A model generated the notes under the pieces. It was not told the DNA's origin. It did not search any database and saw only the letters and a list, made by a program, of their open reading frames with translations. The position numbers and the translations under genes were made by a program. A stretch of DNA of 64,000 nt from Malania oleifera. Taxonomy: Eukaryota > Streptophyta > Magnoliopsida > Santalales > Ximeniaceae. The stretch covers positions 97,460,397 to 97,524,396 of the forward strand of contig NC_080423.1 in NCBI RefSeq assembly GCF_029873635.1, in the 5' to 3' direction. Shown here piece after piece: positions 2,225 through 63,203 of this stretch (its first letter is position 1; each line of letters starts with the position of its first letter).

Positions 2225-2847
2225 TGTTATATTTGTGTGTGGCTCTTATACTTAGTGGAGTTCATAAACAAAGGAAGAAAAGCATATGGTTGAAATTATT
2301 GGTGCTCTGTAGAAGGGACTCGTCGACGAGTGTGCCTCACTCGTCGACGAGGAGATACCGAGAGCTAGAAAATCTCAGAAATTCAAAGACTCGTTGACGA
2401 GTGCCCTACTCTAGTCGACAAGTGGACTTCTCTCTCTCGTCAACGAGTGCCCTACTCGTCGACGAGTGCTCTCGGGGCTGCGAGGAAATTTTCAAATTTT
2501 GAATATGAACGTTGTAACGGTTGGGGATTAGGAGGGAAGCATTCGTGGGGTTGTTAAATATACTACTCTTAGTATATTGTAGTGAGAGAGAGGGTGAGAG
2601 AAAGAGAGAAAATCATTGTATACCATTGTAGTGTGTATCTTTGATTTTCATAGTGAAACTCTTTCCTTATTACTCCCGTGAATGTAGGCCTTGCCGAACC
2701 ACATATTCCTGGTGTCGTTACTCTTATCTTTACTTTCTTTATATTGCTATGGTTGTGGAATGATTCTGGATTCATCATTTAGATTGTTGCAAGTGTATGT
2801 TTGATCCTTTACAACAACATTATTATTCTGCTATGCATTGTTTAACA
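2225..2847 (+). mobile_element. Copia 3' LTR
   Basis: It starts TGTTAT immediately after the polypurine tract and ends TTTAACA, giving the inverted TGTTA...TAACA ends typical of plant Copia LTRs (about 623 bp). The U3 holds a cluster of CTCGTCGACGAG-like palindromes, followed further on by an AG-rich stretch. The sequence to its right (2848 onward) belongs to a different Copia element on the opposite strand, so this LTR marks an insertion point. The left target-site duplication is off window. Confidence 0.75.
2319..2466. promoter_or_regulatory. Palindrome cluster CTCGTCGACGAG in Copia U3
   Basis: About six exact or near copies of CTCGTCGACGAG occur within about 150 bp, two of them at 2319-2330 and 2340-2351. 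A GGAGATACCGAGAG spacer follows the second copy. The same palindrome and spacer recur in the U3 of the Tekay-type LTRs elsewhere in the window. The cluster lies upstream of the presumed Copia promoter, so a role as a repeated protein-binding or enhancer element is inferred, not shown. Confidence 0.6.
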
Positions 2848-3144
2848 GGCATCAATGAATGGTGTTATGGTGGTGGTCGTTGATGTCTTATCCAATGAGT
2901 TCTTTGAAGGATGGAAGTGGAGATATCAGTGGAGTTGGGACAAGGTTTATCACTAGTAACATACTCAAGTAGATTATACCCAATTAGGAGGGCTTCAAAT
3001 TGGGCATGCATTGAGGGAAGGTTGAAGGTGTGAGTTTTTCGTTTATTTGGGTAGTGATATTGAGAGCAATAAGAGGGATCTCTGTTGGAGAGGGTGGAGT
3101 TGTGATCAGGTTCTCGTGGGAGAAAGGCTCTCTTGATACCATAA
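2848..3144 (-). mobile_element. Second Copia element: PBS and gag N-terminus (relic)
   Basis: On the minus strand an ATGGTATCAAGAGAGCC sequence resembles the initiator-Met tRNA primer-binding region (TGGTATCAGAGC). It is followed by a reading that matches the start of plant Copia gag (NITTQINEKLTPSTFPQ, then LIGYNLLEYVT, then HWIR). The gag is cut off at 2847/2848 by the + strand Copia LTR, so this is the older element. It is broken. Confidence 0.7.
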
Positions 3145-3420
3145 TGAAGTTTGAAAATATTGACAGTAAAGTTCTTATTACTCTTGTGAAGAATATTTCA
3201 CCCTCATTACAAATGTTTGTATGGAAATATATACAAGTATACAAAATCTATTCTAGGAATGAAAGTTAAAAATAAGCCTCACTGTTACAAAACTTTAACT
3301 CATGATTTGTCTAACTGTTACAAAGCTTTAACTCGTGATTTGTTAAACTATTACAAAGTTTTAACTTGTGATTTGCCTAATTGTTACAAAAAGTTTCTGG
3401 CTATTACAACCATATTTTCA
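3145..3420 (-). mobile_element. 5' LTR of the second Copia element (probable)
   Basis: It lies directly before the minus-strand primer-binding site. In minus sense it would run TGAAAATATGG...AAACTTCA, with matching TGAA/TTCA ends. The outer boundary at 3420 is chosen only from that end symmetry. It contains the 33-bp tandem repeat at 3281-3391. Confidence 0.45.
3281..3391. repeat. 33-bp tandem repeat, about 3.4 copies
   Basis: Three full units (3281-3313, 3314-3346, 3347-3379) and a partial fourth share the pattern ACTGTTACAAAGCTTTAACT plus a short AT-rich tail. The period is a multiple of three, so the + strand reads as an 11-residue repeat, but this is most likely LTR sequence and not a coding region. 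Confidence 0.85.
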
Positions 3421-5142
3421 ACCTAATAATCAGGTTGTATGATCTTGTGCTTGATTTGAGGAGTCATCTTTTATAAGTTTCACCATATGAACAAATTATC
3501 AACCATTGAATACAAAATAAAGCACAAGTAGTAAACAAGTATGAAAGTAGACAAGAGTCACGTCGTAAACGTTAGCAAGGGAGGCAAGTAGGCTAAACAC
3601 ATTTACAAAATCTAGTGATTTTTACAATGACTCATGAACGTTCATCCTCTCCTAAAGAGCTTTATACGCTATTCTAGCTTTGATACTAGGAAACATGAAA
3701 CTAACCGAAGAGTCATACACCTACGTCTATGGCATTATCCTACTCAAGGAATAAAACCTATACTACTTTTTACTTGATGGTTACCCATCCCAATGTACAC
3801 AAGACAATTGATCACAAGCATGGATAATGCCCTCAACAAGCTTGGCTCGTGACATGTAGGCTCTCCTCCCCTTTCAAAAATCCACTTACAAGAATTAACC
3901 ACCCAACGAAATCCTCCTATTCGTGAAACATGACACTAATTTATGTATCTAATAACTACGAATATTTAATAGACAAAGTACACCAAAAAGAAAAAATTTG
4001 GAGCATCTTTATGGATAGCATCACTATATCCATAAATGTAAAAACCACTAACATGAGTGATATGCACAAATAATATTTAACAAGTGTCTATTTTTGCACA
4101 ATGCCATCTATAGAATAGTCATAAGGCAATTAGATTTAATCATAGAGATGTCCTAACCCCACCATTCACGTGATAGGAAAAACCTTAGGCACGTTACATA
4201 ATTTGATACATGTAGTTCCAAAACAGCAGAGGCTTTGCATGGAAAGGAAGGATTTGCAAATTGCATCACTTATAGTTCTCATTTTTTGTAAATTCAGTGC
4301 TTGGTATGCAAGGAAATAGAATTATCTTGAATCATAATCCTGAAAAGAGTACATTTTTTGGGTCACAAAACTAACCAAATTACTCAAATTTGGTGAGAAT
4401 TTGTGAGAATTGAGAATGACATACCCCACCCTCCTTCAAATGTTCCTTTGAACAAGGGATAAAATAAGGAGGAAAGGGAAACAAGTCAACAATTTTTTTT
4501 CCATTTGTCATACCAAAGAAAAGAATTCAATAAAAGTCATTTATAATTCTATCCATTGTATTTCTAAATTAATTGCGAGCTTGTGTTTACGAGTGTAGAC
4601 TACATGCGTTGGGTTCCAATTTGTATGAATTCAGCCAGACCCAAGGTTTGAGCTCTAATGTTATATTTGGGAGCTTGGAATGTGAACCTAGATTCACATT
4701 TATATATATATATTTGGACAAAATATAATTCAAAATTTTAGTCACTCGAGGCCTACAATGATACAATCTACTTAAGGTTGTATACGGGAGTAAGACTTTT
4801 AGACCGCAGTGTTGGATTTGTATAGATCCATCTTAACAAAATTCAATATAATTTTGTGTTTCGTTGTTCTCAAATTCACGCAAACTCAAATCTAATGCCC
4901 AAATTTCTAGCTCCCAAACACCGGGTAGGCTCCCAAAAGCGGTGTGAGTTGAATTCAATTTAACCGAGTTGAATTAAATTCTATTTGAACATGATCCCCA
5001 CAGTGACACCATAATCAACCATACTAAATTTAATGAGGCCCACAAAATCAGGTATGGTAAGAAAGAAAATTCCAAATGCCTACATTTCTAAGACTAATGA
5101 AATTTGCTCAAGCGAGAACAAGCGTTAACCACATATAAGTGT
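3421..5142. other. Intergenic, no gene recognised
   Basis: AT-rich unique-looking sequence. Neither strand shows an open frame with recognisable similarity. If the methyltransferase-like exon at 5151-5508 belongs to a living gene, this stretch would be part of its first intron. No second exon of that family was found here. Confidence 0.5.
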
Positions 5143-5622: not shown

Positions 5623-8229
5623 TCATTAGGAAAAAAATAAATAAATAAATTCCTTCTTAATCATTTTGATCCTGTGCAGAGAATATGAAATTTTTCGTTT
5701 TGCGTGCATAACAAAATACGGTAGATAAGAAAAACTAAAAAATCAAATCATATCACAAAACTGAACCAATCTGAATCCACAAATTGGTTCATCATTTTTT
5801 CCATTGGGTTTCGCATCAAAATTTTTAATTTTTTCATTTATGGATTCAGTTAGATTTAACTCGGCCCATTTAATAATGATGATTAACCGAATCAAATCGA
5901 TTATATGTTATATATAATTTTAATAGTTTGAATTAAAAAGACAATTATATATTGATGCTTAAATTTTGATAATGAATAAAACAAAATTGCAACAATGTAC
6001 CATTTTAGCATGAAATTAAACAATACATTGAAACACATAAAATAGGAACAATATTTAAATATAATTTTTTCTATGTTTTTAGCACAATTAATTGCTAATT
6101 AAATTACTTAAAAATAGATTGATTCAATCAACAATTTTAATAGTACAAAGGAATTTTTTTTAAAAAAAATTAAATCTGCTTACTCAAAGGCGAAAATTTT
6201 TACCATCCTGAAGGGAGGTTAGTAGTAGGACTCTTTTCTAATGGAGATCCAGCTATCAAGTATTAAAAGAAAAATGGATGAAAAGAAAATAGGGAAGAAA
6301 AGAGGGAGAAGAAGATGAGTCCTAATACAAATAATAGGTATAACTTGTTTTTAGTGAGATTAATTGTCATATATATGTATTTCGATGATTAGTTTTTACA
6401 ATGATATCATAATTTAATTTAGCACATTATGATAAATTCATATGAATAATATAATATGTATGTAGTACGTAAAACTTTACAAAATATTATGGGCATATAT
6501 ATGTAATATAAATTTATTTGCGCCGAATCAATTTAAATGTAAAATTATTGAGAAAAATAAAATACATATATAAATCATAAGAATATTGAATGAGAATTTA
6601 AAATGTAAAATTTGAGCAAAATTTAAATATTTTATTTTATAACACATGGAAAGTTTGTAAAGACCTGAACCCGAGTGAGTTCCTACATATAAATTTTTCA
6701 GCGAACGCAATAAATTTCATTTATTTTTATTACTAAAACACTAATTAGTTCCATTACAAATATATGTCTCAAATATTAAAATTAAATTTTTTAAAATTTT
6801 AAAATACACAAACATATTCTAAATTGTATTATGTTAATTTTTTTTTTTATTCTACTCTACTCTTTGTACTCCCACTCATGCACCTGCTACTCCTGATTTC
6901 TTATATGCTCTTCCTAGTTATCTGAAATGTAAAATAATGATTGGAGTGAAATGACGCTCAGTAAGTAAATAAAATTATTATTAGTGTGTGACCAAAATGA
7001 ACTTTCTTAATATTATAATTTAGTAAAATAACATTTAATATTAAAAATTCAAGATTGCATTTAAAATAAGTGTAAATTCAAAAATTTTTATATAAAACTT
7101 TTACCATAAATTATAGCAATAAAATTTTTATAACTATACACTGCAACTATTAAACTGAACTTGTTAACTTTAAAAACTGTAATTATGGTATTTAATTATA
7201 TACATATATACTTTTCCTTATACGTTTTCTTTAGATAATCATTTAGGCACAAAAATAGTCATCTCCACATAAACATATATTTTTCCTTCAAATCTTTAAT
7301 AACTATGTTCACATAATTATGTACATATACATATACTGTAAAAATTTTATTTAAGTATGTTAATCGTAAGTCATGTTTACCCATATTACTGAATTGTGCG
7401 GTTCGAAAACTGGAGTTAGACGGCTAGCTGGCCGGTCAAACTAAATCAACGTATATCATCATTAAGAGAGATTTTTCCTACTAATTATTGGTTCGACTCA
7501 GCTGTGTAAAACTACTCTATAAACAGTGTGAGTGCACTCTGATTTATTTAAACTTTAAGTTAAGGTACGGAGTATTCATAATTTTTTGTATCTTCAGAAC
7601 CATAAAGGGGTTTAGAAAATATCTTATTATATAATTTATATAATTAAAATAATATCATGAAGATATTATTTTTACTCATATTTTCATAAAATACGGAGCG
7701 TAAAAATAAACTCATGTTATCTTTACTCATATTTTCGTGAAATATGTAACGCAAAAATAAATTCATGCCACATGATTTTCGTATTAAAAATATTTTTTTA
7801 AATAAAAATTAATGTTATAAAATACTCGAGAGGTTTAGAATATTTTTTAACTCAATAATAAATACAAGTATATTAAAAATAAAATTGATATAATTAAATA
7901 TACATAAAAATAAATTCAAAAAAATTATAAAAAATAATTAAGATAATCAAAATTTACTTACCCTGACTTATTCCTGTGAAACAATCACACTCAACTTTTA
8001 ACTCTTATAAGAGTGAAATTGAAAAGAGGGAAAAAAATAAAAATTTTAAGTATAATAAAAATTCTTCAAATGCCACTCAATTTTTTTCTCACTCTTCTTT
8101 TCTTTTTTCCGTTTCTTTCTCATTTCTCTTCAGTTTTTTATTCTTCACAACTCCTTATATAGCTCATTTATTTATTTGTTCTTTCATTATCAACGAGCAT
8201 AAAAGAGGAAGCATGGGAGTAAATGGGAG
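5623..8229. other. AT-rich intergenic DNA upstream of the methyltransferase-like exon
   Basis: Very AT-rich. The part next to 5623 would hold the promoter and 5' UTR of the minus-strand exon, but no convincing TATA box stands out among the many AT runs. No coding similarity was seen on either strand; the short open frames here are low-complexity. Confidence 0.5.
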
Positions 8230-17664: not shown

Positions 17665-19342
17665 TCTTTTATTGTTTTCATCGTGTTCCCAAAATTACCA
17701 TGACTCTGTCTTTCTGTACTGTAAACACTGTATCTGTAGCATCTTGATGCTACCTATGTATATCTATTTGTGTATTCTGTATATATATACTCTGTCTGTG
17801 TTCTGTATGTTATGGTAAAAGGAAAAACATGGCATGTTATAACACTGTATATATGTTTATACCGTTATGTAATAAATTGTAATATAAAATACTGATTTGA
17901 GTATCTGTATACATGTATTTGGATATATGTATATAACCGTTTCATGAACTATTCATATAAAACTGTATATGCATGTATATTTCTCTGTGAATATAAATCT
18001 ATCTCTGTATCATCTCATATGTTGGAAAACCATATCAAATGTATATACTATCTATATCTTTATATTTAGTATAGTGTGATGTTTCATAACAACTGTATAA
18101 GTTCATTCTTCACATGAAAAGTCTACTTAGGCCACATAAACATTTATGCTCATTTTCTTTAAAAACAGTATAATAAACTGACATAAAAATATGTTTATGA
18201 AATCTCTATTAACTCTATTAAAACTCCTAGCATAGCATATTTCCCTTACCTCAACTTTGAAAAGCCCCTATAAAAATCTGGCTCTATATCCGCATGATTC
18301 CTAGATCAACCTCCTGAAAGCACAATATCCCAGAACAAAATATTATTATTTTTTCGCCTACGTCATTTCTTATAACTACCATAAAGTCAAAAACTCAATA
18401 AAAGACCTTACCGATAATTTGGGATGAAACTCAATTGCGTTTTCTCGACAATCCGCTCCGGCAGATTTGTGGAGAATTCCTCCAGGAGCGTCGTGGTAGC
18501 TTCAGATTGTCGATCCGATGACCAGTGGGGCCGAAAACGAAGAGAGAAGGGAGAGAAAGTCGTAGGGAGAGAGAGAGGAGAGAGAGAGATTTCGTAAAAA
18601 TGAAAATTTTCCCCAGATTCCGTATATATAAACAGGGGATTTCGTCGATGAGACCCTATGCTCGTCGACGAGTCCTTCACAAATTTCGTCGATGAGACCC
18701 TGTATTCGTCGAAGAAATTCAGGCTGCCTCAGAACCCCTCTTGGTATTTTCTTGTCGACGAAATTCTGAAGGCCTTCATCGACGAGACCCTGTGTTCGTC
18801 GACGAAGTTTGGCAATTTTTCTGAGATTATTTTTATTTAATATTATCTCCAAAATGCAATGTCGTCGACGAACGCGAAGTCTACGGCCTCCTTTTGTTTC
18901 TGTATCTATTTTCCTCTCTCTTTAATATTTGAATATGGATATTTTCTAGGTCATTACAGAGAGAGTTTTCGCTGAAATTTCTGTGTAAAACTGAGTTTAA
19001 ACAATATTTATACTGCGGGATTCATCGACGAGCCACGTCACCTCGTCGACCAGTCTTGCAGAAAGTTCGTTGACGAACCTACACCCTTGTTGACGAATTT
19101 CAGACTTCCAAAAATCCACTCTTGGTATCTTCTCATTGAAGAAACTTGTGTTCGTCGATGAGACCCTATGTTATCCTCGTCAACGATTGCCTTGTGTTCA
19201 TCGACGAGGCCATTAGAAAATTCCTGAATTATTATACCCCAAAGAGCAACGTCGTCGATGAAGTCGGCTTCCTCCTTCTGTTCCTGTTTCCATTTCTCTC
19301 CCTCTTTATTATTTAAATACCATTATTCTTCAGGTCACTACA
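15138..19342 (-). mobile_element. Tekay-type solo LTR D (about 2.0 kb plus nested LTR E), TSD ACATC
   Basis: The boundaries are set by the exact duplication ACATC at 15133-15137 and 19343-19347. Own sequence is 15138-16748 and 18964-19342. In antisense it shows the GTGTGTGG / TTGTGCAGCC conserved blocks, the leader (CAATCCGCTCCAGCAGACTT, 16617-16636), a TATA box (TATAAATA on minus, 19005-19012), a bZIP-type TGACGTGG (19033-19040) and a cluster of GTCGAC-type palindromes at 19020-19260. Confidence 0.85.
16749..18958 (-). mobile_element. Tekay-type solo LTR E, TSD GAGAG
   Basis: 2,210 bp, TGTAACGACCTC...GGTCATTACA, flanked by GAGAG at 16744-16748 and 18959-18963. It sits in the AG-rich leader tract of LTR D, so E is younger than D. 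It carries about eight TCGTCGACGA variants at 18635-18880, a TATATATA box at 18623-18630, the conserved leader at about 18430-18520 and an (AT)n run near 17620-17662. Confidence 0.9.
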
Positions 19343-29372: not shown

Positions 29373-30149
29373 TTATCTCTTGAGTGTCTCGTCAGCTTCC
29401 TTCATGTACTCTTCCATTTCATTCAGCCACAGGTCTGCAAACTCACAATTCTTCCAAGATTCAAACCATGGGCCTCCTAGAGTGTAATGTATTGCTTTTG
29501 GGAATGTTGCAGGATCATTCTTATCGACCTTGTTGTGTCCCACAAGAAAATTCCACACAAATGGTACCGACCCGATTTCATGATCATCGAGCCATTGAAA
29601 CCTATGAAGGAAGGCACCGGTTTGCGAGTTCACAACCTCAGGCGTCAATGCCCGGTTCTTCGGGTGGCCACAATTATACAAAACCATGGAAGACCAATTC
29701 TTCCTCGGGTAAACAGTTTGCACAACCCCATCCATCTTGGTGGTCTCTTTTGGGGTGTAGTCATGCTGAACACACATAATGGCGTAGTTTTCATCAACCA
29801 GGTCTCTCAATTCCTTAATGTCAGCTAAGTATAGAAAGTCACAGTCCACAAACATTGCCCAGCCTTCAAAATTGGCCAAGTGTGGAGTCAAGAACCGAGA
29901 AAATGAGAACTCAGTGCTCTCAAATTGGCCTCGGTCACGCCAGTACAGGCCGCTCTTCCTCAGATCTGCTTGTTTGATGGGTATAACCTCAACAGGAATT
30001 GAAGATCGCTTCAAGACGGAGTACCGACACACCTCGAAGGCAAGGTCTTCGCGGGGATCATACCCCACAAAGATTTTTAAAGGCTTATCCATGGCTGTTT
30101 CATTGCAAACACTGTCTGCGTGAACCTCACCATTTCTACTAGAATTCAT
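29373..30149 (-). CDS. CDI: CDI-like protein, nucleotide-diphospho-sugar transferase fold
   Basis: A complete, uninterrupted single-exon reading frame of 258 residues from ATG (30149) to TAA. It resembles the plant protein annotated as CDI (Arabidopsis At1g64980-type), in the nucleotide-diphospho-sugar transferase superfamily. Visible features are a beta-strand start LKIFVGYDPREDLAFEV (residues 24-40), a DxD-type metal/nucleotide-sugar motif VDCD (101-104) within WAMFVDCDFLYLADI, and the C-terminal HYTLGGPW block (221-228), which in GT-A folds often lies by the active site. There is no signal peptide or membrane segment, suggesting a cytosolic or loosely attached protein. Substrate is not known from sequence. 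An alternative start at Met20 would begin just before the conserved domain. Upstream, a 5' UTR intron is predicted (30166-30524). It is the only intact host coding gene in the window, and the clean frame argues it is active. Confidence 0.9.
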   Translation of the reverse strand: MNSSRNGEVHADSVCNETAMDKPLKIFVGYDPREDLAFEVCRYSVLKRSSIPVEVIPIKQADLRKSGLYWRDRGQFESTEFSFSRFLTPHLANFEGWAMFVDCDFLYLADIKELRDLVDENYAIMCVQHDYTPKETTKMDGVVQTVYPRKNWSSMVLYNCGHPKNRALTPEVVNSQTGAFLHRFQWLDDHEIGSVPFVWNFLVGHNKVDKNDPATFPKAIHYTLGGPWFESWKNCEFADLWLNEMEEYMKEADETLKR

Positions 30150-30165
30150 CTTGTTGTACCAGCCT

Positions 30166-30524
30166 CTGCTTTTACAGAAAGATAGACCTGTAAATTTACA
30201 GGCGATTCAGCCCAAGACCTATAACCAACAGAAAAGAAACAGAAAAAGGGTTTTTGAGAATTAATCTACGAAGGCAAAAGGATGTCAAGTACATTGAGAA
30301 AAAATTGATAATTCGTGAAAAAAAACAACAGCAAAGAAACAAAAATGGAAAAGGGTTTTTGAGAAAAATTCTCAGGGGGCTAAAGGGTGTCAAAGACATA
30401 AAAAAAAAAATCTGAGAATTCGTGAAGAAATAATCCAACAGTTCTGCTAGAGAAACAGGGAAATAAAATGCATCAAGCTGGGGTAAAGATAATCCATAAA
30501 GGGATTTTCAAAGAAATGCCATAC
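30166..30524 (-). other. Predicted 5' UTR intron of the CDI-like gene
   Basis: On the minus strand a donor CTCCAG|GTATGG lies at 30525/30524 and an acceptor AAGCAG|AGGCTGG at 30166/30165, 16 nt before the ATG. The 359-bp interval is T-rich in sense, as plant introns are. Other nearby AG dinucleotides could be used; transcript data would decide. Confidence 0.55.
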
Positions 30525-38679: not shown

Positions 38680-38897
38680 CTCGTCGATGAATCTCCTGTC
38701 TTCATCGACGAGTGTTCTTCTGGGGATTGTCGATGAAGTTTAGTCCCTCGTCGATGAAGATATCCCGAGAGAGTGAATTTCATATTTTAAGTTTCGTCGA
38801 CGAATGCACCCTCTCGTCGATGAATTCCCTTATGTGGTTCGTCGACAAATCCTGTCTTCTAGTCGACGAAATCACGTGGCAACATTGTGTATAAATA
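38680..38897 (+). promoter_or_regulatory. U3 palindrome cluster, G-box and TATA box of LTR H
   Basis: About eight TCGTCGACGA variants (many as GTCGATGAA), a spacer ATATCCCGAGAG at 38760, a CACGTG at 38873 and TATAAATA at 38890. The spacing resembles a plant RNA polymerase II promoter. Activity is inferred. Confidence 0.6.
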
Positions 38898-40437
38898 GAT
38901 TTGAGGAAGCTTCTCCGCGAAGAAATCACTTTTTCTTCATTTTTCTCTCTCTAAAAACGTTCTCTCTACCTTCACTATAAGATTTCAGCCCGGATTTAGT
39001 CCGAATCAACAAACAGAGACCGCTACGGTGTTCTAGAGGAGATTCTCTACACATTTAGCGGAGCAGATTTCTAAACTAGGCTTTCCAGAAACCGCTCCAA
39101 AGTTGAGGTAAGGGTTTGGATTCCTAGTTTTTGGAGTTTTTAACGTTTATAGGTTGAGAAAATGTTGAAATAGTAGGTTATTTGGGATTTAACTGATTAA
39201 ACTAGGGTTTTTGATTCAGGATTCGGGTGAGCGCCGCAGATATCATTTTGGGGTCCCTATTGGCATAGTTCAGGAAATCAGGTAAGAAAAATATATTAAA
39301 TCAGGATTTTTAAGAAAATAATTGGTGAAAAATAGAAATAATATGTATATATGTATATGATTTTCATGTGTGGGTTTTGAAAAACCAACCGTTTGAATTG
39401 TAAATTTATGAGCCTAGGGTTGTGCTACTAGATATTATTTGTGAAAATGAAAAGTTAAAATGGTAGATTTTTTGGTTAATTGTGTAAGGAATTAAAGGTA
39501 TATTTTCAGTATATGAACGATGATTATGAGTTGGCTTATTTTCAGTAAACATATGAATATATGTTGTTAAATTGTGTGGCATGAGTAAAATAAAGTTTCT
39601 GTGTTGAACTATGATATATGTATGTGATGCATGAAATACTGGAAATGCATTGAGAATTAAAATGTGATATGATTTATTTTGCATGTGTTTGGTAATGTTA
39701 AATTACAATGTATGGTTTGAGAACTCCGGTGGACCAGAAAAATGGCACAGTATTGTTGCGGATATGTTTGGTAGCGCTAGTGCACCCACACATCTTAGAT
39801 GAGTGTGAAAACGGGATGGTCGATTGTATTGGGAAGGGTTGTGACAACCTGCTTATTTTTCACATTTTTTATTATTATAATAAAATCAACATCATACATT
39901 CCAGCTTAGTAGGTCACAATCCACCTGGATTCATGGGTACCAAGGATACATTAGAACACAAAACAGAAGCCTAAGCAGAACATACAATCATATCATACAT
40001 CACAATACCAGAGTTACTACAACCACTATATCTTAGTATATACATCCCAAAATCAGATTTAGGGACATTCCCCACAAAATCTAATTGTCCATACAAAACT
40101 TACCCTTCAAAAAGGGCAGATAAACCGTGACAACCCGAATAATAATGGGATTTAAGCAATAAGAGGAGGGGAATTGGAAACAGTAACAGAAAGAGGAAGT
40201 CGGTTTCGCGTTCGTCGACGACATTGCATTTTAGAAGGAAAAACAAAAAGGGGATCATCAGGACTTCGTCGACGAATCCCCTGTATTCGTCGACAAAGAC
40301 TGAATTTCGTCGATGAAGACTGAATTTCGTCTATGAAATTAGTGAGAATTCATTGACAAAGGATGCGGCTCGTCGACGAAATCCCCTGCCTATATATATG
40401 AAAAATCCAATTTTTAACTTCATTTCTAAGCTTCCTC

Positions 40438-43140: not shown

Positions 43141-45357
43141 GATTTTCAGTATCATAATCACATTTCCAAAAAACAGTACTTCAGAACAATTTATACTCAT
43201 GCCACACTAATAGGTTTTCCACATATTCAACATATCATCATTTTCAACAGGGTTTTCTAAAATATAAATCATATATATATAAACATATTTACTTTCCTGA
43301 AATCAAATGCTACATATACATGTATTTTTTAAAAAGAACTAACTTAGTTTATCCCTTTACCTGATTCTTGAAAAGTTCCTAAGAAAATCTACCCCACACC
43401 CGTAGGGTTCCCAACTCAACACCCTGAAAATGAAAACTCTCAGTATTAAACTTCAATATTTCTACGTGTATAACACTTTCCTCAACTGTCAAAAATTCAA
43501 ATACTGAGTAGAAAGCCTTACCCTGGATTTGGGATGGTTTCCACCTTGATTTCACCAATGATCCGCTGCGGCAGATTTGGAGAGAATTTCTCCAGGAGCG
43601 TCGTGGTGACTTCGGATTGTCGATCGGGCGTAAATCTGGCCTGAAATTGACGAAAGAGAAAGAGGAGAGAGATTTCTTAATTGTTAAGTAAAAATCTGCA
43701 TTTTTTGTATTTATAGAACAGGGGATTTCATCGACGAGCCACATCATTCGTCGACGAAGCCTTCAATAATTTTGTTGACGAAATTTAGTCCTTCGTCGAC
43801 GAAATTCAGTCTGCTCAAACCTCTCTCGGTATTTCTTCATCGAAGAAATCCAGCCTTTGTCGACGAATTCTCTTAAGCCTTTGTCGACAAATCCCCTGTA
43901 TTCGTCAATGAATCCCTGATGATTTTCCCTCGGCTAATCCTTCCAAAATTCAATGTTGCCGACAAAAGCGACTGCCTCCTTCTGTTTCCGATTTCCATTT
44001 CCCTTTCTTTTATCATTTAATTCCCATCATCCTTCGGGTCGTTACAAGGGTAGTATCCCCCTAGAGTCTAGACTAGTGTGGGAACAACCAATCGTACCTA
44101 GGAACTGTAGAATGTGGTTAGTTTAACTCTGGTGGGCTGACTAGGGTTAAGTCCAGCCTTCGGGCTGCACAACCCGTCATGGGACGGAAGCATGACTATG
44201 ATTTCATCACCAGTATAAAGGGTTCTAAACGCATAATTATAAGTTTAACCATGGATAATATAAGAATAACAGATATGGAAATAGTAGATATGAGAACAAC
44301 AGATATAAGAACAGCAGACAGAAATGATATGAAAACGTAATAGGTGAAAGCATACATGAATATAGAAATGAGAAATATAGAATATGAATGTGAATGTAAT
44401 GAATGATACAGAGATAACAGTATAAAGAGTAATGTAGTAAAGTATTATCAGTATTAAATATATTATTACATGTATTTGGGATGGGGTATACTCTTCGCCC
44501 GAGGGCTTCCTGAGAAAGGCGAGTGCTCTGATAGGTATCAGATGTGGCTATATTAGGCTGCATAACGGATTAAGGCAGAGGAAAACTACTTGTATGGGTG
44601 GGTAATCTTCCTTATTCTTGAAAACTTTTGCCAGGAAACCTTTGTGTGAATGTGTGAGTACGAGATAAAGTAATCAGTTGAGGGCTTATTGAGTAAGGTA
44701 AGTGCCATAATATGCTTCAGTTACGACCGTAGATTACTTAAGGTATTAGAGTAGAGGGGTGCTACTTGTCTAGGCGGGTAATCACCCCTATCCTTGGGAA
44801 CTCTTGTTGGTAAAATACCTTACATGTGTTTGAGTAGGAACAGAGAATGATTTCATAATTGTGGTTTCTTTTGAAATTAAATATACATATATGTTGTACT
44901 TAAACCTTATGATTATCACACGCTGATTTAATGTATTCCATCCTAACTGAGATGTGTTTTTAACCTAATAATTGAATTTCATCTTTTCAGGACCTCCGCG
45001 GGTTCGAGCTTAGAGAGCTTGGGGCTGTTATAGTATTTTTAAGATAGAGGGTATAGACTTGTGGATGTGTATATTCTTTTTGGGTTTGTTTATGTTTTCA
45101 GAGATGTATATATATGTTTGTGAATACTGGCTATTTAGAGGTTATTTTTTTGAGATTGTATACAGAAGTAGAAACTCTGGTATATTTTTGAGGAATTGTT
45201 ATTTTCACTGCGTGATTAAGATTATGATATTAGATACAGGTAAAATGAACACGTGGCACCTGACTCCCACTTGGCGGGTTCGGGGCATCACGAAGTGGTA
45301 TCAGAGGTGTCTTTCAAATAACACTCTGGACCCTAGTTTCGGGTTCGGGGCATTACA

Positions 45358-45979: not shown

Positions 45980-48132
45980 TGTAACAACCTGCTTAATTTT
46001 CACACATTTCTTTTCCTTAAATAATACAAATCAGTATAATAAATCCAGCAGATGATGATCAACCTGAACCAATGGGTACCAGGGATAAAACAGAAACACA
46101 TAACGGAAACCTAAAACAGGAAACATAAAACCATAATATCATAATCACAAGATCATCCATCTTATCTCTAAAGTTACTACATCTATTGTATTTAAGCATA
46201 TACGCAATACACAACCCAAAAGATGCCCTAGGGTCACTTCTCAAAAGTCCATCAAACTCTATCAAAACTTACCCTTTAGAGAGGACAAATCAACAGTACT
46301 ATCTCAGCAGAACTTTATCCGCTTTCCTATCAAGGCTCCTGAAAATGTTTATGAAATTTTGGGGTGAGACACCTCTTAGTAAGGGAAATAAACTAATACT
46401 AGTGTGTGGCAACATAAGTACTTCCGTGTTCTATAAATAATCATATATAAATATATCGGTATAATTGTCTGTATCATATCTGGGAAACATATATTCTCAT
46501 ATCATGGCAGAATATACAGGATTTTCATAAACATAATTCATCTCATATAATAATAATACGAAAACAACCCCGGTAGGTTAGCTGGTTGTTGTCATGTATT
46601 ACCCTCACATGACTAGGTTGTGTGGCCCGAAGGCGAGAGTTGACAATGGTTGGCGTACCACTGCCAAATCAAAAGTATAGTCTGTAAGTCTTATGGGACT
46701 GCCAGACCTGGTTTGTACACCAGTGGCGCTCACACTTCTTAAAACCATATCGACTATCCGTTCTCACGCTACTCCGTATAGCAGCGTTAACACAATATCG
46801 TAATGATCACGAACACATAGCATCAGTATCGTGCAAGTGCTAGCCTAAACCAAGCCAACCAGTTTCCGATAATATATAACATATAATGAAACTGTAATAC
46901 ATGAATATTTCATACCATTAATTACCAAATCAATATCATTATATCATTTTGCATATATACGTATATCATGAAAATCCCGTACGCCGGTATTTCATATTTT
47001 ACCATAGCTCGGCTCGTACGCCGGCAAATCATATCCAAAGCTCGACCCGTACGCCGGCAAACATATCTATAACTCGGCCCGTACACCGGCAAACATATCC
47101 ATAGCTCAGGCCGTATGCCGGCAAATATATCCATAGGTCGCCTCGTATGCTGGCAAATCATATCCATAGCATAGCCCGTGCGCCGGCAAATCATATTCAT
47201 AGCATGGCTCGTACGCCAACAATATATGTAAAACTTCTTAGATCGCACGCTAATTTTATTATAAAAATCCACATCATTATCATATTCCCAGAAAAACAGT
47301 ATTTCATTATTAATTCTACTCATGCTACACGAAACAGGTTTTATATATATTTAAACATATAATCTTTTACAGCAGTATTTCCCAAACATAAAGCATATAT
47401 AAATATATATTTATTTTCCTAAAATCAGATGTTGTAATAATATACATACATTTTCATAAAATAACTAATTTAGTTTATCCCCTTACCTGATTCCTGAAAA
47501 AGTCCCTGAAATAGCTAGTCCTGCACCTGCAGGGTTCCCCATTCAACACCCTGAAAACAACATTTTTTAGAATTAAACTTCAGTATTTCTATATGTACTA
47601 TGCTTTCTACAACTACAGGGAAAGCCAAATATCGAGTAAAAGTCTTATTCTGAGTTTGGGATGAATTTCAAATTCGTCCTACTGACGATCCATTTCAGCA
47701 GATATGTAGAGAACTTCTCTAGGAGTGTTGTAGTGACTTCAGATCGTCGATCCGGCGAAAAATAAGCCTAGAAATTTAGAGAGAAGGGTGGAGGGAGAGA
47801 GAGTTTGGGAGTCGAATTTTAGCTTAAAAATGAAGTTTGACCTATTTATACACTGGTCTTCGTCAATGAGCCACGTCACCTCGTTGACGAGGTCAATAGG
47901 AAATTCGTTGACAAACCCTTCACTCGTCGACGAAATTCAGAGATGCCCAAAACATCCTCCAAATATTTTCTCATCGATGAAATGCTCCCTCGTCATTTTG
48001 TCGATGAGCCCCTCATGCTCTCTCGTCGATGAACCCCCTGAATTCGTTGACAAGGCTCTGTTTTCTTTTTCCCTTTTCCCCTTTTCCCCTTTCTTTATTA
48101 TTTAAATATTATAATTTCTATGGGTCACTACA
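45980..48132 (-). mobile_element. Tekay-type solo LTR K, TSD ATTAT
   Basis: 2,153 bp, TGTAACAACCTG...GGTCACTACA, with exact ATTAT flanks at 45975-45979 and 48133-48137. It is antisense, close in sequence to LTR I, with a GTACGCCGGCA minisatellite (46975-47230), a minus TATAAATA (47843-47850), TGACGTGG (47871-47878) and palindromes (47855-48050). Confidence 0.9.
46975..47230. repeat. Minisatellite, CCCGTACGCCGGCA unit, in LTR K
   Basis: About seven or eight diverged copies of the same unit as in LTR I. Confidence 0.85.
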
Positions 48133-53156: not shown

Positions 53157-53564
53157 TCAACCCTGAGTCTCACTGAACATGTGTGGGTAACTTTGACGCA
53201 TATGTTCCTCCAATTCCCAAGAAGCTTCCTTTATTGCATGATTGCACCATAATATTTTTACCAATGGAATGCTTTTCATGCGTAGCTCATGCTCTTTCCG
53301 GTCCAAAATCTGCACTAACACTTCTTCATAAAACAAGACATCACCAAGCTCCAGCGCCTCATAACTGCTCATATGGGAGGGATTTGAAACGTATTTCCTC
53401 AACATAGAAACATGAAATACGTCGTGAATTTTAATCAAAATTGGCGGTATCGCCAACCTATAGGCAACTGGACCCACTCTTTCTAGAATTTCAAATGGTC
53501 CAATATACCCAGGGCTTAGCTTACCCTTCATCTCAAACCTCATAACTCCTTTCAGCGGTGCCAC
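53157..53564 (-). mobile_element. Tekay element: end of integrase and chromodomain
   Basis: The reading contains GKLSPGYIGPFEILERVGPV and YRLAIPPILIKIHDVFHVSM (the integrase C-terminal GPF/Y-type module), then ILDRKEHELRMKSIPLVKIL and EASWELEEHMRQSYPHMF (chromodomain). In this family the chromodomain is thought to guide integration to particular chromatin. Confidence 0.9.
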
Positions 53565-54720
53565 CTTAAAAAATACATGATCTCCAGCGTCAAACTCTAA
53601 CTCTCGTCGGCGAGTATCTGCATGACTCTTCTGCCGACTCCGTGCTATTCTAATCCTATCTCTGATGAATATGACTTTATCTTAAGTCTACTGTATCAAC
53701 TCTGGCCCCAAAATCTGTCACTCCCCAATGTCATCCTAGTATAACGGGGATTGGCAGCTCCTACCATATAATGCCTTATATGGTGTCATCCCAGTGCTGG
53801 TATGATAGTTGTTATTATATGCAAATTCAACCAATGGAAAAAACTTTATCCAACTACCTCCAAAGTCTAGCACACAAGCTTGCAGCATATCCTTCAGTAT
53901 TTGTATCGTCCTCTCCGTCTTCCCATCTGTCTGAGGATGAAATGTTGTTATGAACAACAACTAAAAACCCATGGCCTTCTGCAAACCCTCCAAAACTGAG
54001 ACATAAACCGTGGGTCTCGGTCCGATACTATTGATACTGGAACGTCATGCATTTTAACTATCTCTTGTATATACAACTCTACCAGTCCGTTTAAGGAGTA
54101 ATTAACTATGATAGGCAGGAAATGGATAGTCTTTGTCAGTCGATCCACAACTACCCAAATGGCGTCCTGTCCATGTAATTTCAGCGATAACCTTATGACA
54201 AAATCCATCGCTATATGCTCTCACTTCCACTCAAGAATATAAAGCGGTTGTAGTGATCCCGCCGATCTTTGATGCTCAGCTTTCACTTGCTAGCATGTCA
54301 AATACTGCGCTACGAACTTGGTGATATCTCTTTTCATACTACTCCACCAAAAAGACTCTCGGAGATCCCTATATATTTTAGTGCTACTAGGGTGTACAGT
54401 ATATAGGGATCGGTGCACTTCTTCCAAAATAACTTTCTTAATTTCAAGGTTAGTAGGTACACACAGCCTGGCGTGGAGCCTCAAGACTCCATCATTTAAA
54501 ATACTGAAATCTTCCTCCAAACCATCCTGTACTTTTCCTATAATCTCTACTAACTCAGCATCACTGCTCTAAGTCACTTTAATTCTTTCCTGTAGAGTCA
54601 GCTGCAGCACCAGATTGACATTAAATGCCCGGTGATCGCCTTTTACGAGTTCTATCCCAAGTCTCTCCAAATCCATCTAGATCGGATGCTGAATCACCAC
54701 TGCAGATACTGATGAACCCA
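53565..54720 (-). mobile_element. Tekay element: integrase zinc-binding and catalytic core region
   Basis: Segments read HRSLYTVHPSSTKIYRDLRE (HHCC zinc-binding region, about 54290-54520), then MDFVIRLSLKLHGQDAIWVV and VDRLTKTIHFLP (start of the catalytic core, 53948-54208), then FHPQTDGKTERTIQILKDML (53736-53960). The order and wording are those of Gypsy integrases. Broken. Confidence 0.88.
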
Positions 54721-54751: not shown

Positions 54752-56789
54752 TGTGACAACCAGAATAATAATGGGATTTAAATAATAAGAGAAAGGGAAA
54801 TAGAAACCGGAAACAGTAGGAGGCAGTCGACAACATTGCATTTTGGAAGGAACAATCGAGATAAATTATTAGAGAACTCGTTGATAAACACAAGGGATTC
54901 GTCGACGAGGGCACAAGAGGGTCTCGTCGATGAAGCCAAATTTCGTCGATGAGGAAATACCGAGAGAGGTTTTTGAGTCGAATGAATTTCGTCGATGAGG
55001 AGTGGGTTTCGTCGACGAGATGACGTGACTCGTCGATGAATCCAATCCTATAAATACTAAAAATCCAGATTTTAACTTTACAATTAAGCAAACACTCACC
55101 CTCTTTTTCTCCCTTCGGCTCCCTCTCCTTCTTTCTTCGATTTCGAGCCAAATTTACACCGAATCGACAATCTGAAGCCACCACGACGCTCCTAGGAAAG
55201 TTCTCTGCAAATCTGTCAGAGCGGATCGTTAGTGAAAGTAAGTTGGAAATCATCCTTGAGTTGAGGTAAGACTTTTTAAGCCAAATTTGGTCTTGGGACA
55301 GTTATAGGGAATGATATACACGCGAAAATACTGAAGTTTAATACTGGGAGTTTTATTTTTAGGGTATTAATCAGGAAATCCTACGGGTGTTAAACCAAAA
55401 TATTTTAGGAGGCTTTCTCAGTAACCAGATAAGGGAATAAACTAAAGCAGTTATTTTTCACGCAAATTACTATTATTTATGAGCAAATAGGTTTTCTGAA
55501 AAATTATATACGATAATTGAATATTATGGAATAAATGCATATTTGTGAAAATACTGCTATTATGTTGAAATGTGTATATATGTACGAGATGCTAGAAACG
55601 ATGATTTTAAAATACAATATATGGTTTTATACAGCAAATGTGTGACATGAATATTATTTTACGTGAAAAAATATCATGATATGACAATGATATGAATGAA
55701 ATATGTTCAGAGAAATTATGAAAGAATACAATACATTATGATGTTGAAAATATATGATAATTGATATATTTTCAGAATGTTACTTATGAAATGATTGGCG
55801 TGAAACCGTTTTTATGTATGATTTCGGCGCGAGGCCGTATTTATGAAACGATCGGCACGAGACCGTATTTATGAAATGTTTGGTGCGAGGCCATATTTAT
55901 GAAATTATGAAATATGTTATATTATTACGTATTATATGTTATCAAAACCCAGGTGTTAGTTTAGTTTAACTCAGGAGTTCGGTACCGTAACTTATAGACA
56001 AGATATTTATGATCATATTGGTACTAACCACCCCACGAGGGGGTGGGAGATGGATAGTCGATATGGATTTCAGTAGAGTGTGGACGTCCACCTGGCAGTC
56101 CGGACCAGGGTGTGGCTGGCCCATCGTACTTACAGACATTTTTGACTCGACAGTGGTCGGCTAGCCATTGTCAAGTCCCGCATTCGAGCTACACAACCCG
56201 TCATGAGGGGGTAATACATGACATCAACTAGTTATTCATCTTGAGTATGTTTTCAGTATTATCAGTTATAATAGATGTTTTATGTACGATATGATTTATG
56301 AGCAAATATGAAAATATATGATGATTCAGTATTTTATGATGAATGTTTACAGATATATGAAATGTACTGTATATGTATAATTGTAATAAATATTCATGTT
56401 GCCACATAGCTGTATTTAGTTTATTTTCCCTTACTGAAATGTGTCTCACCCCCGAACTTAATTAATTTTTCAGGAGACCTTGAGAGACTGGCGGGTCGTG
56501 GCCGCTTTTGAGTAAGTTGAGCTTCCCTGCTAGAAGGGTAAGCTTTGATCTAAGATCAAGAGATTTTTGTTGTAGATCCTAGGTCTATTTTTATGTTTTG
56601 GAAATTGTATTTAAATACTGTATTTTAGGAATGTAGTAAATTCTTATATTATGTAATTAATGGTTGATGGATGTAAATTTATATTTACTGCTGCTTAGGT
56701 TTCCGCTGTTTATGTTAGGCTATCCCCGCTACCCATAGGTTTGAGTTGATATTATTATTATTTATGTTTATTATTTTGAGGACGTTACA
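54752..56789 (+). mobile_element. Tekay-type solo LTR L, TSD ACCAC
   Basis: 2,038 bp, TGTGACAACCAG...GGACGTTACA, with exact ACCAC flanks at 54747-54751 and 56790-56794. Sense orientation: palindromes (54884-55040), spacer GGAAATACCGAGAGAGG (54952-54968), TGACGTG (55021-55027), TATAAATA (55049-55056), conserved leader (55160-55235), donor-like GAG|GTAAG (55266), a GGCGCGAGGCC minisatellite (55795-55910) and acceptor-like TTTTTCAG (56473). It lies inside the pol region of the minus-strand Tekay element. Confidence 0.92.
54884..55056 (+). promoter_or_regulatory. U3 palindromes, TGACGTG and TATA box of LTR L
   Basis: Palindrome variants TCGTCGACGAGG, CTCGTCGATGAAG, TTCGTCGATGAGG and TTCGTCGACGAGA, a bZIP-type TGACGTG at 55021 and TATAAATA at 55049. 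This is the clearest example of the shared promoter layout. Confidence 0.6.
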
Positions 56790-56794
56790 ACCAC

Positions 56795-58006
56795 ATTAGC
56801 CTTTCCCGAATGGTAACTGATGGTGCAGTCATAATCTTTTATCAGCTCCAGTCATCTCCTTTACTTCATGTTTAATTCTTTCAGCGTGAAGAAGTATTTC
56901 AAGCTCTTGTGATCGGTAAAAATCCCACACTTACTCCCATAGAGATAATGTCTCCAAATTTTCAGAGCAAAAACCACCGTTGTTAACTCCAAATCACAGG
57001 TAGGGTAATTCTTCTCATATTTTTTAAATTGTCGTGAGACATATGCTATAACTCTCACATGCTGCACCAGAACACAATCGAGTCCTTTATGTAACGCATC
57101 ACTATAAATTATGAAACTCTCTTCTCCTAAAGAAATCGTTAACACTGGTGCAGTGATGAACCGCTGCTTCAACTCTTGGAAGCTCTGCTCACATTCGTCA
57201 GTCCACTCAAATTTCACCCTTTTCCTAGTCAATCTAGTCAACGAACTCGATAATTTAGAAAAACTATCAACAAATCTGCGAGAGTACCCAGCCAATCCTA
57301 GGAAACTTCTAATTTCCTGCACATTCTTCGGTTGTACCAAGTCTACTACCTCTTCAATCTTACTCGGATCTATTGAAATGCCACCCTTGGCTACCATGTG
57401 TCCAAGGAAGGTAACTTGCTCCAATCAAAATTCGCACTAATTAAATTTCACATGTAGTCTTCTTTCCCTTAACACCCGAAGCACTATCCTCAGATGTTCC
57501 TCGCTTCCCTCTGAGCTCCTTGAATACACCAGTATGTCATCAATGCATACCACCACCAACTGATCTAAATACTGGTGGAATACCCATTTTATCAAATCCA
57601 TAAACACTACAGGAGCATTGGTTAGTTCAAACGGCATAACTAAGAATTCATAATGTCGTCTTTAAAACATTCTCTGCTCTAACTTTTACTTGATGATACC
57701 CAGAATGTAGATCTATCTTTGAGAAAATCTGTGTTCCCTAAAGCGGGTATTTATTCTTGATAGTCACTTTATTAATTTCTCAGTAGTCGATGCACAATCT
57801 CATCGAGCCATTTTTTTTTTCACAAACAATATCGGTGCTTCTCAGGATGACATGCTAGACCAAATAAACCCCCTATTTAACAGTTCCTGCAACTATTCCT
57901 TCAATTCTTTCAATTCTATCAGTGCTATTCTGTACGACGCTTTTGAAATCGGTGCTGTCCCTAGAACTAAATCAATAGCAAACTTTACCTCTAGATCAAG
58001 AGATAG
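56795..58006 (-). mobile_element. Tekay element: reverse transcriptase and RNase H region
   Basis: The minus strand shows the RT start (LELKEQLQELLNRGFI-like, near 57870-57920), the catalytic-motif region [14 protein letters not shown] (57437-57637), a thumb/connection part [20 protein letters not shown] and the RNase H start [15 protein letters not shown] through [12 protein letters not shown] (56861-57424). These are standard Gypsy RT/RNase H blocks. Broken. Confidence 0.9.
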
Positions 58007-61390: not shown

Positions 61391-63203
61391 TTTCAATCTC
61401 CCATAACATTCCAAATATATCTAGGATCCACAACAAAATAATCCTGATCCTAGTACAAAATCTTACCCTCCTAGTGGGGTAACTAAATAAATTCAACGGC
61501 GGCCATGACCCGCCAATCTCTCAGGGTCTCCTGAAAAATTAATTAGGTTCGAGGGTGAGACACTTCTCAGTAAGGGAAAATAAACTAAATACAGTTATAT
61601 AGCAACATGAACATTCAAGGCAATTTTACATATACAGTACATTTCATATATCTGTAAACATTCATCATAATATACTGAATGATCATATACTTTCATATTT
61701 GCTAATAAATCATATCGTTCATAAAACATCTGTTATAACTGATAATACTGAAAACATACCCAAGATGAATAGCTAGCTGATGTCATATATTACCCCCTAT
61801 GACAGGTTATGCAGCCCGAAGGCGGGACCTGACAATGGCTGGTCGACCACTGCCGAGTCAAAAATGTCTGTAAGTACGATGGGCCCGTCACACCCTGGTC
61901 CGGACTGCCAGGTGGACGTCCACACTCTACTGAAGCCACATCGACTATCCATCTCTCACCTCCTCGTGAGGTGGTTAGCACAAGTCTAAACATAGATATC
62001 TGATCTATATAACAATGGTACCGAGCTCCTGAACTAAATTAAACTAACATCCGGATTCTGATAACATATAATACATTATATTATAGCATTTTTCATCGTT
62101 TCATAAATACAGTCTCGCACCAAACATTTCATAAATACGACCTCGTGCCAATCATTTCATAAATACGGCATCGCGCTGAACATTTCATAATTACGGTCTC
62201 GTGATGAAATCATACATAAATACGGCCTCATGTTGAATTCATTCCATATATGTATATCATTCTGAAAATAATCAATTGATCATGTATTTTTAACATCATA
62301 ATGTACTACATTCTTTCATAATTTCTCAAAACATACTTCATTCATATCATTGTCATATCATGATATTTTTTCATGTAAAATAATATTCATGCGACACATT
62401 TGCTGTATAAAATCATACATTGTATTTTAAAATCATAGTTTCTGACATCTCATACATATATATACATTTCAACATACTAGAAGTATTTTCCCAAACGTGC
62501 ATTTTCTTTGTAATATACAGATATAATACATGTTTTCTTGAAAATAAATTTATCCATACATAATAATAATTTGCATGGAAAATAACTGGTTTAGTTTATT
62601 CCCTTACTTGACTACTGAGAAAGCCCCTATAAATTCTGGACTCACACCTGTAGGATTTTCTGCTCAATACCCTGAAAATGAAAACTCTCAGTACTAAACT
62701 TCAGTATTTTCACGTGTATATCATTTCCTATAACTACCGTAAGACCAAATTTGGCTTAAAAAACCTTACCTCAACTTATGGATGATTTCGAACTTGCTTT
62801 CACCAACGATCTGCTCTGACAGATTTGGAGAAAACTTCCCTAGGAGCGTCGTAGTGGCTTCAGATCATCGAATTGGCGGAAATCCGACCGAAAATCGAAG
62901 AGAGAAGAGAGAGAAACCGTAGGGAGAGAGAGAGAGAGAGTGAAAGATTTCTTAATTATGAAGTTTCAATACGAGTTTTTGATATTTATAGGACTGAATT
63001 CGTCGATGAGCCACGTCATCTCGTCGACAAGTCCTTTAATAATTTTGTCGACAAAACCCACTCCTTGTCGACAAAATTCAGACGGCTCAAAACCTCTCTC
63101 GGTATTTTCTCGTCGACGAGCCCTACTGCCTCCTTCTCTTCTTGTTTCCATTTTCCACCCTCTTAATCATTATTTAAATATTATTACTCTTCAGGTCATT
63201 ACA
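61171..63203 (-). mobile_element. Tekay-type solo LTR N, TSD CAATA
   Basis: 2,033 bp, TGTAACGACCTC...GGTCATTACA, with exact CAATA flanks at 61166-61170 and 63204-63208. It is antisense, with a CGAGGCCGTATTTATG-type minisatellite (62110-62240), the conserved leader (62800-62875), minus TATAAATA (62983-62990), TGACGTGG (63011-63018) and palindromes (62998-63122). A CCTCTCTCGGTATTTTCTCG spacer lies at 63092-63111. It separates gag from protease. Confidence 0.92.

Follow-up and report, generated by a model that had tools for sequence, protein, structure and literature searches.

A strictly phased array of 12-bp palindromes recurs in the U3 region of LTR retrotransposons belonging to two superfamilies, one Copia family and Ty3/Gypsy elements of the Tekay type, in the 64,000-nucleotide stretch of Malania oleifera DNA analysed here (the window). 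The array is best read as a promoter/enhancer module. From sequence features it seems rather likely that it is a U3 enhancer array which the Copia family took up, probably from a Tekay-type LTR, and which would serve a putative dimeric regulator. Palindrome clusters had been noticed in a previous, sequence-only reading of the window; new are the strict phasing of the palindromes and, in Tekay-type LTRs, a TATA box at a short fixed distance beyond them.

Palindrome arrays in the window and across the genome

Fifty TCGTCGACGA sites with at most one mismatch are found in the window, vs. a mean of 0.28 and a maximum of 2 in 100 dinucleotide shuffles. Forty-eight reside in one Copia LTR and eight Tekay-type LTRs, and just two, at 52712 and 53604, lie outside clusters. 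At up to two mismatches the sites number 77, vs. 3-13 in five Markov simulations, and form nine clusters of at least three sites, of which the Copia LTR has one and Tekay-type LTRs the other eight (Table 1). The sequence-only reading had reported about six palindromes and a spacer in the Copia U3, and palindrome clusters in at least eight Tekay-type LTRs, several with the same spacer. All three statements are borne out, the Copia LTR holding six palindromes, three of them perfect, together with the core GAGATACCGAGAG, the number of Tekay-type clusters agreeing, and the core adjoining a palindrome in six of the eight (18-base anchor, at most five mismatches); at this setting the 40212 and 47860 clusters yielded no core.

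Table 1. Features of the window, with positions, strand and structural details
Feature	Position	Strand	Details
3' LTR of decayed Copia element	2225..2850	+	paired with a 5' LTR, 87% identical
Palindrome module in Copia LTR U3	2319..2466	+	six 12-bp palindromes at 2320, 2341, 2391, 2412, 2437, 2456; starts 21/50/21/25/19 apart
Core GAGATACCGAGAG	2352..2364	+	in central gap, immediately after second palindrome
Putative TATA-like TTAAATATA of Copia LTR	2554..2562	+	about 90 bp beyond module; read from the sequence
Tekay-type cluster	18642..18871	-	spacings 20,24,20,46,24,20,66; reverse TATA 18623; core 18738
Second Tekay-type cluster, adjoining the 18642 cluster	19022..19261	-	reverse TATA 19005; core 19119
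Tekay-type octet	38681..38869	+	spacings 21,25,21,46,20,25,21; TATA 38890; core GATATCCCGAGAG (11/13); weaker family link
Tekay-type cluster	40212..40379	+	spacings 54,21,20,20,43; TATA 40391; core not found
Tekay-type octet	43728..43911	-	spacings 20,24,21,44,20,24,21; reverse TATA 43708; core 43823
Tekay-type octet	47860..48053	-	spacings 21,24,19,47,27,25,21; reverse TATA 47843; core not found
Integrase C-terminus, Ty3/Gypsy (Tekay-type) element	53157..53681	-	Pfam SH3_Tf2-1, E=2.4e-25
Tekay-type cluster	54899..55039	+	spacings 25,19,46,20,21; core GAAATACCGAGAG 54954-54966; TATA 55049
Ty3/Gypsy RT/RNase H fragment	56861..57424	-	Pfam RT_RNaseH_2, E=8e-27
Tekay-type cluster	63000..63119	-	spacings 21,24,20,45; core on minus strand near 63096-63108; reverse TATA 62983

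Motifs were counted in 1,494,336,490 bases on 510 contigs; in the accessible text of PMC10199050 the M. oleifera assembly is described as 1495.1 Mb in 514 scaffolds, with an N50 of 112.6 Mb and 13 pseudo-chromosomes. Exact copies of TCGTCGACGAG total 115,922 (57,806 + 58,116), vs. 595 (296 + 299) for the reversed control. Exact palindromes form 25,387 pairs 14-44 bp apart, vs. 0 in the control. Among the first 97 distinct pairs listed, which are the first places on one chromosome rather than a genome-wide sample, 58 are spaced 19-21 bp, 25 are spaced 24-26 bp, 14 are spaced 43-44 bp, and none has any other distance within the 14-44 bp range. The individual start-to-start distances are 19 (8 pairs), 20 (30), 21 (20), 24 (18), 25 (6), 26 (1), 43 (1) and 44 bp (13). 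The core is likewise abundant, GAGATACCGAGAG occurring exactly 1,501 times, vs. 33 for its control, and the 18-mer ACGAGGAGATACCGAGAG, which spans the palindrome-core junction, 18,287 times within two mismatches, vs. 78.

The palindrome is followed by TATAAATA within 6-30 bp at 17,066 places (9,079 + 7,987), vs. 3 (1 + 2) in the control. Gaps among the first 100 places listed are 9 bp (40 places), 30 bp, equal to 9+21 (30), 19-22 bp (14), 11-12 bp (11) and 27-29 bp (5). Such TATA-linked spacing gives the module a set place with respect to the core promoter, in the direction in which the LTR is transcribed. A motif common across the genome outside these LTRs at random spacing would have undermined the sequence-only reading; the palindrome is indeed very common throughout the genome, but it is spaced in a markedly non-random way and tied to the TATA box.

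Module anatomy and the elements that carry it

The full module, as found in Tekay-type LTRs, consists of eight copies of the 12-bp palindrome YTCGTCGACGAR, with starts about 21, 25, 21, 46, 21, 25 and 21 bp apart. The central gap, of 44-51 bp, opens with the 13-bp core GAGATACCGAGAG or a near variant, and the last palindrome is commonly followed, at 9-12 or 19-22 bp, by a TATAAATA box. Sixty-two modules were parsed, the next palindrome being sought 17-29 bp further on, or 40-54 bp across the centre. Twenty-eight are Copia and 34 Tekay-type, the latter including one GA-repeat false match (L031_1306) which is kept in the gap counts and excluded from the identity, residue and ACGTG counts. Automatic labelling had assigned 32 modules to Copia, probably through GA-rich matches, and was replaced by the list of 28 LTR matches.

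Successive gaps in Copia modules measure 21 (20/20), 47-51 (50 in 15/24), 20-21 (22/24), 25 (14/20) and 21 bp (12/17), those in Tekay-type modules mostly 21, 25, 19-21, 44-51, 20-21, 24-25 and 20-21 bp. Both outermost upstream palindromes are missing in all 28 Copia modules (at most three mismatches), hence the Copia module corresponds to the Tekay octet's inner and downstream portion, with the same order, polarity and core. The last spacer carries ACGTG in 11 of 28 Tekay modules (17 if decayed forms are included) and in none of 20 Copia modules. The core, or a near form of it, is present twice in the central gap of three Copia LTRs (L023, L051 and L057).

Thirty loci, 3 kb each, were fetched by the exact core, and are for this reason uninformative on the share of core-less clusters. 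They comprise nine Copia LTRs (eight recognized by matches of at least 250 bp, L023 by a 156-bp match), 20 loci joined to a window Tekay-type LTR, and L031, which the match test linked to no other locus and which is counted as Tekay-type by its module. Clusters picked in other ways also contain the core: it resides in all four of the L001, L002, L005 and L007 clusters at 9-10/13 identity (anchor with at most four mismatches), and ten Tekay-type modules not picked by the exact core (18-base anchor, at most 4-5 mismatches) match it at 11-12 of 13 positions in five instances and at 9-10 in the other five.

Seven of the eight Tekay-type window LTRs have alignments of at least 200 bp to one another or to Tekay-type loci among those fetched; the 38681 LTR aligns with L034 only, over 209 bp, and its filing as Tekay-type therefore rests on the module and on this match. 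Of the 30 loci, the nine Copia ones alone match the Copia LTR of the window. Gypsy integrase or RT (RT/RNase H) adjoins the module LTR, upstream and on the same strand, in 6 of the 21 Tekay-type loci and in none of the nine Copia loci, about 1.5 kb upstream of the module being in view. The integrase fragment of the window (Table 1) gave no Pfam match to a chromodomain at 0.001. The Gypsy elements are presumably Tekay/Del, a name taken from the sequence-only reading. Del is reported as the most prevalent Gypsy clade in M. oleifera in a 2019 paper (PMC6377399), in whose accessible main text neither 'palindrom' nor 'Tekay' occurs. Elsewhere in the window, a 277-aa open frame (29373-30206, minus strand) looks by eye like a host glycosyltransferase-type sequence, with no Pfam match at 0.001.

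On the Copia side, the window element has its 5' LTR outside the window, 237-845 bases upstream of it (L009:7153-7763), and the element (-845 to 2850) features two LTRs around an internal region. The same module is found at the same place in the 5' LTR, minus one 21-bp unit. The gag remnant has its best Pfam match in PF14223 (copia-type gag; E=5e-4, below the curated cut-off); Pfam scans of the other pol remnants gave no match, and by eye these resemble Copia integrase and RT. In tblastn, five remnant peptides gave at most one weak match (E=0.87) to other Copia loci. The surroundings of the element are repeated as well. A 59-bp flank is duplicated at 95% identity on both sides (window 2854-2912, L009 ~7097-7155), far exceeding the usual 5-bp target duplication, and 332 bp of the window (3144-3475) recur at 93% identity some 4.7-5.1 kb before the window begins.

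A search with the Copia LTR returned 43 scored matches (40 scored among 3,117 first-look candidates), including five pairs about 3 kb apart, a spacing which points to a short, decayed and probably non-autonomous family. All 20 loci fetched, two of which are the window element's own LTRs, carry at least one palindrome (at most two mismatches) and 18 at least three, a set which cannot reveal module-free members since the loci were ranked by whole-LTR similarity, module included. The LTR alignments of the two palindrome-poor loci are partial. The core anchor (at most four mismatches) is present in 19 of the 20, the exception being L046, and a stricter Copia-type string of core and spacer has 577 genome matches within three mismatches, vs. 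0 in the control. A Copia LTR turned into a chimera by one insertion of Tekay U3, raised earlier as a possible objection, is excluded, as the module sits in both LTRs of the element and palindromes are found at this place in all 20 copies fetched.

LTR-pair distances are 0.105 in the window element, 0.099 for L055/L056 and 0.150 for L045/L046, the last two being 5 kb apart and perhaps parts of two different elements. At a rate of 1.3e-8, as quoted in the accessible part of PMC6377399, these pairs are about 4-6 million years old, ages which CpG decay inflates.

Many relatives lack the module. Ten other Copia elements were examined at the 3' end, and none has the palindrome at up to one mismatch; two have one site with two mismatches. 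The ten belong by eye to about five families, and the LTR start is in view in eight; L077 and L078 have another open frame after pol, and their LTR may be situated outside the fetched 2.2 kb. The LTRs of L080 and L081, two of the ten, adjoin Copia RT (PF07727), are devoid of the module, and match the window Copia LTR in R/U5 (scores 54.5 and 47.5 vs. shuffled 22.1, sd 3.4, and 18.9, sd 3.0), part of the match being GA-rich. No match to its U3 was found (16.5 and 17.5 vs. 16.3 and 17.1). On the simplest account, the U3 of the window Copia family would have been replaced or enlarged. U3 regions change fast in any LTR lineage, so other Copia U3 regions that lack the module give no date for when it was gained.

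Ten 3' ends were also inspected beside integrases of the clade represented at 53157-53681 of the window, and eight have no cluster. L091, of the same clade, has a cluster with spacings of 47, 21 and 25 bp, then a TATA box. In the last of the ten, a Tekay-type LTR (L090:385-489), a variant palindrome features AATCGTCGACGATT flanks and other spacings, which suggests that CGTCGACG may be the invariant core of the palindrome. With the module absent in 8/10 of these Tekay 3' ends, donor and direction are matters that we infer, and the gaps on the Copia and Tekay sides speak for a patchy history in both superfamilies.

Origin of the shared module

Copia-Tekay identity amounts to 0.735 in palindromes, 0.886 in the core and 0.419 in short spacers, vs. 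0.422 for shuffled spacers, in a comparison in which most modules had been chosen via the core or the Copia LTR. When the window Copia module is set against ten Tekay-type modules not picked by the exact core, the figures are 76.9% for palindromes, 80.8% for the core and 37.4% for short spacers (shuffled, 38.9%). Palindromes, core and spacing have thus outlasted the sequence around them. CpG transitions (C-to-T or G-to-A) account for 384 of 462 palindrome mismatches, and the perfect palindrome is therefore probably the ancestral state; methylated CpGs are expected to decay after insertion, and the pattern of mismatches fits.

LTR-wide homology between Copia and Tekay was not found outside the palindromes in window LTRs: with palindromes masked (the mask also covers the initial bases of the core), not one of eight window comparisons beats shuffles. 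Two Tekay groups are similar to the residue of the Copia central spacer (per-group p 0.0016 and 0.0092), a likeness only suggestive because the best raw score over 10 groups has p=0.14. It was discarded as proof of origin from one Tekay subfamily, the strong impression given by mean scores not being upheld with one representative per group and a test over the 10 groups.

Two accounts had been offered in the sequence-only reading, exchange of a U3 module between superfamilies or convergence on the same host factor. The data fit this pair and favour the first, exchange or another form of common descent being quite probable, because both superfamilies have the 13-bp core in one slot and one polarity and follow one spacing ladder, and because the other Copia elements examined have no module. 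Convergence, in which Copia and Tekay LTRs would have built array and core independently under one host regulator, is unlikely; it keeps some weight because both the masked-palindrome and the short-spacer comparisons are at chance, the short spacers showing no homology across superfamilies. The distance to the TATA or TATA-like box, about 90 bp in Copia vs. about 10 bp in Tekay-type LTRs, and the confinement of ACGTG to Tekay modules also agree with convergence, as does the recurrent gain of heat elements by Copia LTRs of Brassicaceae (accessible part of PMC5059998). Yet a non-palindromic 13-bp core found in the same slot, abutting a palindrome, with the same polarity, is much to ask of independent events, and the 21/~48/21/25/21 ladder is the same in both superfamilies. 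A fixed-slot match of at least 11/13 has p=1.1e-5 at equal base use, and is reached by five of the ten Tekay-type modules not picked by the exact core. Also, U3 likeness is lost among Copia elements with common R/U5.

If the module was exchanged, the ancestor of the short, probably non-autonomous Copia family would have gained the inner module, six palindromes and core, most likely from a Tekay-type LTR. Either nested insertion followed by amplification, or template switching, may have been the route, and the family would then have amplified with the module by about 4 million years ago.

A third source, host promoter or other transposon, could have given the module to both superfamilies, which would suit its patchy distribution, one Copia family and some Tekay families having it and others lacking it; this is quite improbable, as no such source was seen among the nine window clusters and the L001, L002, L005 and L007 clusters, all of which fit LTR promoters. 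Neutral, satellite-like tandem duplication inside LTRs, functionless and spread by copying and recombination, would agree with the tandem units, the 21-bp unit missing in the 5' LTR and the second core of three Copia LTRs, but is very improbable, because palindromes and core are conserved across superfamilies with spacers at chance, CpG decay should have left the palindromes the least conserved part, and the spacing to the TATA box is fixed.

Putative regulator and related systems

A dimeric DNA-binding protein may bind each palindrome, and palindromes 21 bp apart, i.e. two helical turns, would place two such dimers on one face of the DNA, driving transcription. ACGTG is a bZIP motif, and its presence in the last spacer hints at a possible bZIP partner in Tekay modules only. 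The HSF heat element consists of adjacent nTTCnnGAAn units; YTCGTCGACGAR contains neither TTCnnGAA nor GAAnnTTC, and heat-shock identity was rejected. The CRT/DRE element bound by CBF/DREB has the core RCCGAC, and strict identity was rejected also in this case, the palindrome carrying GTCGAC. A looser site, (G/a)(C/t)CGAC, has also been reported for CBF/DREB proteins, and the palindrome would fit it; a link to cold or drought is no more than a lead. The accessible CBF/GTCGAC and cold/DRE/LTR literature of the open PMC library contained nothing decisive.

The palindromes may be thought of in broader terms, the two superfamilies sharing one trans-acting system, with the CpG-dense ladder as the address tag of a putative factor, host or transposon-encoded, that would activate or un-silence any LTR bearing it, and Copia having acquired the tag from Tekay. 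This seems improbable.

Tandem U3 cis-elements which vary among subfamilies, and LTR recombination, are reportedly known from the U3 repeat boxes of tobacco Tnt1 and the mosaic LTRs of barley BARE-1. Those changes occurred within one family or between close families, whereas here Copia and Gypsy are involved. Clustered, spaced host-factor sites are likewise found in the LTRs of ONSEN/COPIA78 and other Brassicaceae Copia elements, where heat elements were gained repeatedly, in correlation with expression (PMC5059998, accessible part). ONSEN-type arrays are made up of nGAAn/HSF sites and belong to Copia families; the array described here is made up of a CpG-rich palindrome, with more than 100,000 exact sites, and is found in two superfamilies. 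The VANC-target arrays of VANDAL transposons (PMC5735166, accessible part) are similar in being dense, tandemly evolving short motifs in non-coding transposon parts. They differ in motif, YAGTATTAY, and in being read by a transposon-encoded anti-silencing protein; the palindromes reside in LTR elements and their factor is only putative.

No description of a U3 palindrome module shared by Copia and Gypsy was found among the titles and abstract starts inspected in the open PMC library, and no paper in this library, whose coverage is distinct from subscription journals and preprints, contains CGTCGACGAG together with 'retrotransposon'. Papers containing TCGTCGACGA, among the matches listed, appear to deal with primers or unrelated work, judging from titles and the start of abstracts. 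In the accessible part of PMC3601003 LTRs are modelled clade by clade, on the assumption that LTRs and coding genes co-evolve. If Copia and Gypsy do trade promoter modules, modular exchange across two superfamilies that separated long ago would shape the evolution of LTR control regions, and element families could pass transcriptional niches to one another. The tight grammar of palindrome, 21/25/46 spacing, core and TATA box, kept in many copies, should make the regulator findable, the module serving as a direct bait, and the module links some of the growth of a large tree genome to a single cis-element.

Tekay LTRs without the cluster have a feature of their own. A hairpin (CTGAAGCT...CTTCAGG or a near form) is found in the U3 of six of the eight cluster-less 3' LTRs (L083:571, L084:520, L086:635, L088:592, L089:492 and L092:547; unmatched in L085 and L087), and is perhaps another regulatory device.
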